Positions 52,556-54,556 of a stretch of DNA of 60,685 bases are shown here, in pieces. This DNA comes from an uncultured Actinomycetes bacterium. Lineage in GTDB: Bacteria; Actinomycetota; Acidimicrobiia; Acidimicrobiales; RAAP-2. Numbering within the stretch: position 1 is the stretch's first letter; the number at the start of each line of letters is the position of its first letter. The notes beneath the pieces were generated by a model. It was not told the origin of the DNA, made no database searches, and was given only the letters and a program-made list of their open reading frames with translations. The translations under genes were made by a program, and so were the position numbers. Location: NCBI GenBank assembly GCA_903860745.1, contig CAIORQ010000032.1:1-60685 (forward strand), given 5' to 3'.

Positions 52556-52849
52556 CTACTTCGAAATCGTCGCGAGGACGTCACGGCTCGAGAGGATCAA
52601 CAGGTCCTCACCGTCGACGCTGATCTCGGTTCCGCCGTACTTCGAGTAGACGACCGTGTCGCCCACGCTCACGCCCGTGGCGATCAGTTCCCCGGTCGAC
52701 TCGGCACGACGGCCGGGTCCGACGGCGAGAACCTCACCCTGCTGGGGCTTCTCCTTGGCGGTGTCGGGGATCACGAGGCCCGACGCCGTCGTCGCCTCGG
52801 CGCTGTTGGGGCGCACGACGATACGGTCTTCTAGTGGGTGCAGTTTCAT
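52556..52849 (-). CDS. groES: Co-chaperonin GroES
   Basis: A 97-residue cap protein. [39 protein letters not shown] and [21 protein letters not shown] are the canonical segments; the mobile loop lies around residues 20-33. ATG 52849 follows GGAGG eight bases upstream. The frame is open further upstream only because it runs antisense-free into the promoter region. Confidence 0.97.
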
Positions 52850-52868
52850 GGGACAGCCTCCTGTTTGG

Positions 52869-52895
52869 TTAGCACTCAAACGTTGTGACTGCCAA
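52869..52895. promoter_or_regulatory. CIRCE element 1 (HrcA operator, start-proximal)
   Basis: TTAGCACTC-N9-GACTGCCAA on the plus strand. The left arm matches the CIRCE consensus exactly and the right arm has one change from GAGTGCCAA-type arms. The 9-nt spacer is canonical. It lies 20 nt upstream of the groES start, covering the expected transcription start. Confidence 0.85.
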
Positions 52896-52923
52896 TTTAG
52901 CAGACAGACGGGTCGAGTGCCAA
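52894..52923 (-). promoter_or_regulatory. groES promoter (-35 TTGGCA, -10 TAAATT)
   Basis: On the minus strand TTGGCA (52923-52918) and TAAATT (52899-52894) are separated by 18 nt. Both boxes lie within the tandem CIRCE region, so a bound repressor would block polymerase directly. Confidence 0.6.
52897..52923. promoter_or_regulatory. CIRCE element 2 (HrcA operator, distal)
   Basis: TTAGCAGAC-N9-GAGTGCCAA on the plus strand, with the canonical 9-nt spacer and one base (52896) from element 1. Here the right arm is the good one and the left arm has two changes. The two elements overlap the -35/-10 region of groES. Confidence 0.75.
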
Positions 52924-52937
52924 CGCCGGGGCGCGGC

Positions 52938-53549
52938 TCAGGGCGAGAGGCGCTCGCGGTGCCAGTTGTCCCCCGCGCGACGGTAGACGACCCGGTCATG
53001 GAGGCGGTCGACCCGGTGCTGCCAGAACTCGTAGTAGTCGGGGACCAGCAAGAACCCGCCCCAGTGGGCCGGGCGGGGCACGTCGAGCCCCTCGTAGAGG
53101 CTCTCCACCTGCGCCAGACGCTCCTCGAAGGCGGCGCGGCTCTCGAGGACCTCGCTCTGGGCGCTGGCGTGGGCGCCGAGCTGGTGTCCACGGGGTCTCG
53201 CAGCGAAGTAGGCGTCCGAGGCCGCGGCCGACATGTGGCGCACGGCGCCCTCGACGCGGACCTGGCGACCCAGGGGCTCGCAGTACCACAGGAGGGCGGC
53301 GTAGGGGTTCTCCTCGAGCTCGGCGCCCTTGCGCGACCGGTAGTTCGAGAACCATCCGAAGCCGTCCTCGCCCACGTGGCGCAACAGGATCATGCGCGCG
53401 CTGGGACGCGCCTGGGCGCTCGCGGTGACCAGCGCGATGGCCTCGGGCTCGCGCACCTCGGCCTTCGCCGCGTCGAACCAGCGGCGGAACTGGACGAGGG
53501 GGTCCTGGTCGGTGTCGGCGACGTCGAGGGGGATCCAGCGCTCGCTCAC
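52938..53549 (-). CDS. pdxH: Pyridoxine/pyridoxamine 5'-phosphate oxidase
   Basis: A 203-residue FMN enzyme making [60 protein letters not shown] and the C-terminal [23 protein letters not shown] with RERLSP are all standard. GTG 53549 overlaps the tsaD stop (GTGA) and has GGAGG upstream. It is the last gene of the long chain from glmM; PLP is the cofactor of Alr encoded upstream in the same chain. Confidence 0.94.
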
Positions 53550-54556
53550 GACACCTCCGTCAATGACCAGTTCGGGCGCGCCGACAGGCCGAGGTCGCTC
53601 GGTCCCGACACCGCGAAGCGGTGCAGCCCGGCCGCGGCGATCATCGCGGCGTTGTCGGTGCACATCGCCAGGCTGGGCAGGTACGCGCCCACGCCGGCGT
53701 CGGCGGCGATCTCCCCGACCCCGCGCCGCAGCGCGGAATTGGCCGCCACCCCCCCGGCCAGGGCCAGGCCACGGACCTCGGGGTGCGTCTCGAGGGCGCG
53801 CCGCAGCTTGCGCAGCAACTGCTCGGCCACAGCGGCCTGGAAGGAGGCCGCCACGTCGGCCAGGGCGACCTCGGGATGCTTCTGGGTCGCGCGCACCACC
53901 GCGGTCTTGAGTCCCGAGAAGGAGAGGTCGAAGTCGTCGCCGGTCATCGAGACCGGCAGGTTCAGCGCGTCGGCGGCGCCGGAGACGGCCAATCGGTCGA
54001 TCTCGGGCCCACCCGGGTAGGACAGCCCCAGCCAGCGCGCCACCTTGTCGTAGGCCTCGCCCGCCGCGTCGTCGATGGTCTCGCCCAACACCACGTGCTC
54101 GCCGGGCGCAAGCTGCAGGACGATCAGCGAGTGCCCTCCCGACACCAGCAGGGTCAGGAGCGGCCACTCGAGTTCGGGTCGCTCGAGCAGTGGCGCGAAG
54201 AGGTGGCCCTCGAGGTGGTTGACGCCGACGAAGGGCAGCTCCCAGGCCAGCGAGTAGGCCTTGGCGGCCGACAGGCCGATGAGCAGCGAGCCGATGAGTC
54301 CGGGGCCGCTGGTCACGGCCACGACGTCGATGGCCGGGGCGTGCGGGTCGAGCCCCGCCCCCTCGAGGGCGGCACGCACCACCGGCGCGATGGTCGTGAG
54401 GTGCGCACGACCGGCGAGTTCGGGCACCACGCCGCCGAAGGCGCGGTGCTGGTCGATGGATGACTCGATGACCGAGGAGTGCACGTGCCACGAGGAGTCC
54501 ACCACCGCCGCGGCGGTGTCGTCGCAACTCGTCTCGATCGCCAGGGCCAGGGACAT
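53546..54556 (-). CDS. tsaD: tRNA N6-adenosine threonylcarbamoyltransferase
   Basis: A 336-residue ASKHA-fold enzyme that transfers threonylcarbamoyl to A37 of ANN-decoding tRNAs. ALAIETSCDDTAAAVV opens it, the metal-binding His pair is in NHLEGHLFAPL, and SGGHSLIVL, SGLKTAVVR, LAGGVAANSALR and MCTDNAAMIA follow in order. It partners TsaB and TsaE encoded just upstream. It lies 9 nt after rimI. Confidence 0.96.
   Translation of the reverse strand: MSLALAIETSCDDTAAAVVDSSWHVHSSVIESSIDQHRAFGGVVPELAGRAHLTTIAPVVRAALEGAGLDPHAPAIDVVAVTSGPGLIGSLLIGLSAAKAYSLAWELPFVGVNHLEGHLFAPLLERPELEWPLLTLLVSGGHSLIVLQLAPGEHVVLGETIDDAAGEAYDKVARWLGLSYPGGPEIDRLAVSGAADALNLPVSMTGDDFDLSFSGLKTAVVRATQKHPEVALADVAASFQAAVAEQLLRKLRRALETHPEVRGLALAGGVAANSALRRGVGEIAADAGVGAYLPSLAMCTDNAAMIAAAGLHRFAVSGPSDLGLSARPNWSLTEVS

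Follow-up and report, generated by a model that had tools for sequence, protein, structure and literature searches.

The groES promoter of the uncultured Actinomycetes bacterium represented by contig CAIORQ010000032.1 (Acidimicrobiales, RAAP-2) carries two CIRCE elements in tandem, the upstream one lying on the predicted -35 and -10 boxes themselves. Both elements, each consisting of a 9-nt arm, a 9-nt spacer and a second 9-nt arm, are located upstream of groES on the minus strand, within positions 52869-52923 of the window (the whole stretch of DNA that was analysed, 60,685 nt in length). Quite probably both serve as HrcA operators, the upstream one covering the core promoter and the downstream one the -10 box and the start site, and both would exclude RNA polymerase.

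According to this explanation, the 55 bp would unite the core promoter of groES with a double HrcA operator. Of the two CIRCEs, the downstream one would occupy the place that is usual in the order, where its first bases complete the -10 box and the start site is covered. The upstream CIRCE would have been gained within the genus when the -35 and -10 boxes already present became operator arms: TTGGCA would serve as the -35 box and as two thirds of arm a, TGC-TAAATT as the extended -10 box and as most of arm b. The geometry of CIRCE suits such a conversion, because 18 bp separate its TTRGCA from its final TAA. As long as the temperature is normal, RNA polymerase would be blocked by HrcA on either site; heat would inactivate HrcA, and both sites would then clear. 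Repression by exclusion and release by heat are predicted for this promoter from established knowledge of HrcA.

Features of the operator region

On the groES strand the region consists of arm a (TTGGCACTC), 9 nt, arm b (GTCTGCTAA), a single A, arm c (TTGGCAGTC), 9 nt and arm d (GAGTGCTAA); arm d is separated from the groES ATG by 19 nt, which include AGGAGG (Table 1). The initial annotation had described two tandem CIRCEs with exact 9-nt spacers, one base apart, and this description was confirmed. The downstream site (52869-52895) has 2 mismatches to TTAGCACTC-N9-GAGTGCTAA over 18 positions and the upstream site (52897-52923) has 3; the spacer is exactly 9 nt in both, and the single base 52896 lies between them. 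None of 100 dinucleotide-preserving shuffles of the window contained a CIRCE match. When R/Y is allowed at arm position 3 (groES strand), 2 mismatches are counted in the upstream and 1 in the downstream site, all of them within arms b and c, the inner ones. TTGGCACTC and GAGTGCTAA, which form the outer arms, match exactly; the good arms are the outermost ones, as had been noted.

Both sites were also scored with a weight matrix derived from 36 CIRCEs of groEL2 and hrcA in the genus. The downstream site scored 32.1 and the upstream site 24.1, values that are the window's own and also the medians of the genus. Elsewhere in the window the best score was -3.5, and the peak over 20 shuffled windows was 7.1. 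Among the four CIRCEs of the genome, the upstream groES site is the weakest by this matrix (24.1 versus 28.4, 32.1 and 37.3). Genome-wide, a match with 3 mismatches is by itself within chance (a reversed-pattern control gave 1 match); the case rests on position and conservation.

Table 1. Features of the groES operator region and adjacent genes (identity: mean pairwise identity over 57 loci of the genus)
Feature	Coordinates	Strand	Identity	Remarks
groEL, 543 aa	50918..52549	-		directly after groES; TIGR02348
groES, 97 aa	52556..52849	-		NF001530, E 4.8e-41
Shine-Dalgarno AGGAGG of groES	52857..52862	-		from the sequence; conserved column block
Arm d, GAGTGCTAA	52869..52877	-	0.945	right arm of the downstream CIRCE
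Spacer 2, 9 nt	52878..52886	-	0.563	predicted transcription start at its first base, 52886
Arm c, TTGGCAGTC	52887..52895	-	0.956	left arm of the downstream CIRCE
Predicted -10 box, TAAATT	52894..52899	-		from arm b over the linker base 52896 to the first two bases of arm c
Arm b, GTCTGCTAA	52897..52905	-	0.825	right arm of the upstream CIRCE and predicted extended -10 (TGC, then TAA)
Spacer 1, 9 nt	52906..52914	-	0.349	free to vary; upstream background 0.306
Arm a, TTGGCACTC	52915..52923	-	0.835	left arm of the upstream CIRCE
Predicted -35 box, TTGGCA	52923-52918	-		first six bases of arm a
pdxH, upstream gene	52938..53618	-		TIGR00558; putative start codon; ends 14 nt before arm a

Conservation within the genus

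GroES was searched in 61 genomes of the genus and matched in 57 (no match in G014, G018, G056 and G059). G045 (contig edge), G037 and G052 (no whole start) and G001 (weak match only) were left out of the loci. The core of the set is the window plus 53 loci from 52 further genomes, G004 being present twice. L008, L009 and L011 were added as assumed members of the genus at 90-91% GroES identity; L006, L007 and L010 were excluded as duplicates. The resulting 57 loci contain 54 different 55-bp cores. Upstream regions were aligned on the downstream CIRCE, with L132 set by hand to its second site.

Conservation of the second site in relatives had been proposed as a check. The upstream CIRCE is kept at an offset of exactly 28 bp in 52 of the 57 groES loci (49 of 54 without the three assumed members), and it is absent at up to 4 mismatches from the other five (L121, L129, L130, L131 and L137). 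Such a site turned up at any offset of 20-70 bp in 0.05% of the trials with shuffled upstream sequence. Arm a reads TTRGCACTC exactly in 43 of the 57 loci and with at most one mismatch in 52, and arm d reads GAGTGCYAA in 50. The inner arms had been called degraded, a description that did not hold. Arm b contains CTGCTAA in 51 loci and has C at position 3 in 55, while the consensus GAGTGCYAA is found in 0/57; arm c reads TTRGCAGTC in 52 loci, with G at position 7 in 54, and has the canonical TTRGCACTC in 1/57. As read from the alignment, these departures are fixed variants, not decay. Arm b apparently doubles as the extended -10 box, which offers a reason for the departure of one arm from the consensus; the -10 box itself is TAAATT in 46/57. 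The counts are of loci, not of independent events, the fixed bases being shared by descent and the free spacer being the only control.

When 396 genomes of the phylum were scanned with a strict tandem pattern, 3 matched, and each of these belongs to the genus, which contributed 6 genomes to the sample; three genomes from two other genera of the same family gave no match. The pattern is narrow: the pair of G039, in which arm c is altered, escapes it.

The fixed variants also bear on a reading that would refine the double operator and is not exclusive of it, namely that two HrcA dimers bind cooperatively and that the inner-arm variants create a strong and a weak site, with stepwise derepression of groES. 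We regard it as a tentative refinement. The two sites abut, their offset is fixed at 28 bp, their matrix scores are unequal and the same substitution is present in both inner arms. A pair is, however, not required for this variant, since it also occurs at single groEL2 CIRCEs, as right arm GACTGCTAA in 16 of 18 genomes of the genus. Furthermore, 28 bp are about 2.7 helical turns (10.5 bp per turn), which does not place the sites on one face, and the promoter register described below already accounts for the offset.

Promoter register

A promoter scan of 52840-53000 gave one promoter, TTGGCA-18-TAAATT with TG before the -10 box, at 52923-52894 of the minus strand. The earlier placement of the -35 and -10 boxes inside the CIRCEs agrees with this prediction. 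Arm a holds the -35 box and arm b the extended -10 box (TTGGCA at -28 and TGC-TAAATT at -7..+1, relative to the CIRCE).

For comparison, 132 loci of the order were collected: 52 named ones, assigned by similarity and titles, and 80 unnamed ones, which come from the higher-scoring part of the match list. Removal of 4 loci without CIRCE and of 7 duplicates left 121; the count of second sites used 120. In these 121 non-redundant order loci outside the genus, the -35 box, commonly TTGCCA, and the -10 box, commonly TATCGT, precede the CIRCE, and the last T of the -10 box is the first T of the CIRCE. TTG is located at -28 in 73 loci, at -29 in 30 and at -27 in 7 (n=121; control positions have a mean of 2 and a maximum of 6), TANNNT is found at -5..0 in 108/121, and both occur together in 105/121. 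A purine directly follows arm c in 57/57 genus loci and 112/121 order loci. The base preceding the start purine is C in 121/121 order loci and in 53 of the 54 non-redundant genus loci. We infer a groES start at 52886. Three loci without arm a have the -10 box at the older position -5..0, as TACAAT, TACTAT and TATGAT.

CTC follows the place of the -35 box in 50 of the 57 genus loci (49 of the 52 with an upstream site; the 50 include L121, in which CTC is present without arm a), versus 1 of the 121 order loci. Most of the nine bases after CTC vary freely in the genus. More than a promoter seems to be selected in arm a. The main argument is that CTC, although outside the -35 box, is kept in the genus, so that the upstream element seems to have been selected as an operator.

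An unlikely alternative is that HrcA binds the downstream CIRCE only, and that the upstream "CIRCE" consists of promoter boxes which resemble CIRCE arms by chance. Arms a and b do coincide with the -35 box and the extended -10 box, arm b never matches the consensus, the upstream site has the lower matrix score, and one genome (G010, locus L129) keeps TTGG and the extended -10 GGCTGCTAAATT but no longer has the CTC part. On the other hand, arm bases outside the promoter boxes are kept, namely CTC and the C at position 3 of arm b; the nine bases between the arms are free, with an identity close to that of the upstream background; and the score of the upstream site is far over the maximum of the shuffled windows.

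A far smaller probability is given to one long palindrome across the outer arms a and d, with 37 bp between them, which the initial annotation had also considered. In its favour are the consensus sequences of the outer arms and a rough symmetry of the 55 bp about base 52896. Inner arm b is, however, conserved to the same degree as outer arm a, and inner arm c to the same degree as outer arm d (Table 1), and both 9-nt spacings are kept. In addition, single CIRCEs with 9-nt spacers precede groEL2 and hrcA, and in 97 of the 120 groES loci of the order no second site lies 20-70 bp upstream. The long palindrome was rejected on the conservation of all four arms. Just as improbable is an effect of the repeats on mRNA stability through a 5' stem-loop of the transcript, which excerpts of PMC3207917 cite as reported for the CIRCE of B. 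subtilis and R. capsulatus: the arms are complementary as RNA, but the predicted start lies downstream of arm c, so that neither CIRCE would be transcribed whole, and the hairpin was rejected because shuffled sequences fold as well as the 37-nt leader (z -0.33).

HrcA and other CIRCEs of the genome

Beyond pdxH, the next gene upstream of groES is tsaD. The genome (2.13 Mb in 110 contigs, 96.6% complete) has a single HrcA match (L001 1162-2208; TIGR00331, E 6.5e-74, above the cut-off; PF01628), and dnaJ comes after hrcA. Absence of hrcA from the genome had been named as evidence against the operators; the genome encodes HrcA. At up to 3 mismatches four CIRCEs are found in the genome, two before groES and one each before groEL2 and hrcA. 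All four precede chaperone or hrcA genes, and the one before the second groEL (groEL2; TIGR02348) is perfect.

HrcA was matched in 60 of the 61 sampled genomes of the genus; G040 (92% complete) has the CIRCE pair and no HrcA match. Of the 132 order groES loci, four (L032, L037, L219 and L155) have no upstream CIRCE. The genomes of the first three gave no HrcA match. L155 belongs to G074, which has an HrcA match and no CIRCE within 350 bp of groES. In one genus of about 2 Mb (f26 g27), the five genomes searched (G086, G135, G171, G203 and G252) gave no HrcA match; L219 (G135), the single groES upstream region looked at in that genus, has no CIRCE.

The groEL2 and hrcA promoters were compared in 18 genomes each, from among the matches listed. 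At the groEL2 CIRCE of the genus, TTAGCA is present in 17/18 and TAANAT follows 18 nt later in 18/18. To judge from these motifs, its layout is promoter-shaped, like that of the upstream groES site. The spacer of the hrcA CIRCE contains TANAAT, a predicted -10 box, in 16/18 genus loci (L243-L260; here L001 1123-1149). The groES promoter is, in terms of predicted boxes, a groEL2-like site combined with a second site over the -10 box and the start.

The hrcA loci of the genus have a very short gap between CIRCE and start codon. Most groEL2 leaders (L225-L242) share a stretch like TTGCACCAAAAAGGTGC 3' of the CIRCE, and a small hairpin before the start codon is possible. Three weak GroES-like paralogues (L139-L141) have no CIRCE at up to 4 mismatches in the scanned stretch. 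A search for HspR-type HAIR (consensus of PMC7464140, up to 3 mismatches) gave 22 matches per strand versus 93 with the reversed-pattern control and was uninformative.

Comparison with known systems

The papers named in this section are cited from excerpts. The consensus TTAGCACTC-N9-GAGTGCTAA is that of HrcA/CIRCE control of the B. subtilis type (PMC1676014). The present system shares with it the common arm sequence, the 9-nt spacer, hrcA in the genome, groESL as the target and a site at the promoter, and differs in having two sites, not one, with the upstream site on the -35 and -10 boxes themselves. Two CIRCEs are also listed for groES of Bifidobacterium breve (PMC9004370, Table 2, "GroES, x2"); both are actinobacterial groES promoters with two CIRCEs, B. 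breve being likened by description only. The dnaK promoter of L. lactis is overlapped by two CIRCE elements (PMC1676014), again two over one heat-shock promoter, but in the dnaK operon of a Firmicute, and the likeness is by description only. For the hrcA operon of Lactobacillus plantarum WCFS1 two CIRCE elements upstream are given (PMC3842655). By description, two predicted CIRCEs precede one HrcA target in both cases; L. plantarum differs in being a Firmicute, in the hrcA operon as target and in an additional CtsR site. For the dnaK operon of L. plantarum, a single CIRCE is given in PMC1676014. At Pgro and Phrc of C. jejuni, HrcA covers the core promoter and the start, and steric interference was proposed (PMC7464140). 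The site there is a single CIRCE-like repeat with a compact footprint of about 30-40 bp. As this footprint exceeds the 28-bp distance between the centres of the two sites described here, two dimers may not fit simultaneously.

PMC3192767 was rejected as a precedent for paired CIRCEs, its "two CIRCE" being one each at dnaK and groESL. No paired CIRCE is found in the excerpts of PMC545781, PMC3231925 and PMC9247516, and the HrcA text of PMC10490939 concerns presence in acidophiles. A promoter-embedded CIRCE register was not found described in the excerpts of the literature searched, most subscription papers lying outside the search. Paired CIRCEs are already in print; the promoter-embedded register looks new. 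The second CIRCE written into the -35 and -10 boxes of the promoter is kept in most sampled species of the genus and suggests that a second operator may be gained without new DNA, promoter boxes doubling as operator arms.

History and other registers in the order

In a GroEL tree of 21 rows (midpoint root; 10 of 18 inner branches open), G013, G016 and G051, which have no upstream site, cluster together (84/79) and are joined by G039 (94/90). This group stands beside the tandem-bearing G055, G006 and G169 (83/76), inside the genus (97/96). G055 fills 18% of the columns, G010, in which arm a is partly lost, is unplaced, and G033 was left out. G082, the outgroup from the same family, carries only one CIRCE. 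The tree favours, with moderate support, one gain in the genus followed by loss.

Second sites are found in several other registers among the 120 order loci. The most frequent one is at 48 or 49 bp (17/120), where the right arm, GGTTGCYAR, contains the -35 box TTGCYA. Position-3 palindromic matching in this class (13/17; Fisher p 0.051) is suggestive only. Four loci have a second site at 42 bp; in L167, L170 and L212 its right arm starts inside TTGCGAGTGC, and in L043 the junction reads TTGCAAGTGC. A second site at 35 bp and one at 29 bp were found in 1/120 each. Three registers, that of the genus and two in the order, place the extra CIRCE-like repeat on the -35 box.

A broader reading, on which we are evenly divided, is that CIRCE is itself promoter-shaped (TTRGCA and TAA 18 bp apart) and that an additional HrcA operator has been built repeatedly, and in different registers, into the core promoter of groES in this order. 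At 28 bp, arm a would occupy the -35 box and arm b the -10 box; at 48/49 bp, the right arm would lie on the -35 box as GG-TTGCYA-R; and in 3 of the 4 loci at 42 bp, the right arm would start inside the -35 box as TTGC-GAGTGC. Sigma factor and HrcA would then recognize the same bases, and the operator would be a composite one whose sites are unequal. The offsets of 28, 42 and 48/49 bp and the loci that have lost the site form a natural series for probing the role of the second HrcA site. Helical phasing of the offsets 24, 28, 35, 42 and 48/49, compared by hand, gave no single phase and was dropped.

Overlapping CIRCE-like repeats 23-24 bp apart, with shared arm bases, are present at groES in L194, L205 and L220 (also in L026 and L217). 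Two CIRCE-like sites 34-35 bp apart precede the GroES match in L065, L085 and L068, which are two Nocardioides records and one Nitriliruptoraceae MAG. Records titled Bifidobacterium breve, Saccharibacteria and Acidobacteria (L038, L056, L006 and L050) contain Acidimicrobiia-like groES loci, and their titles look wrong.
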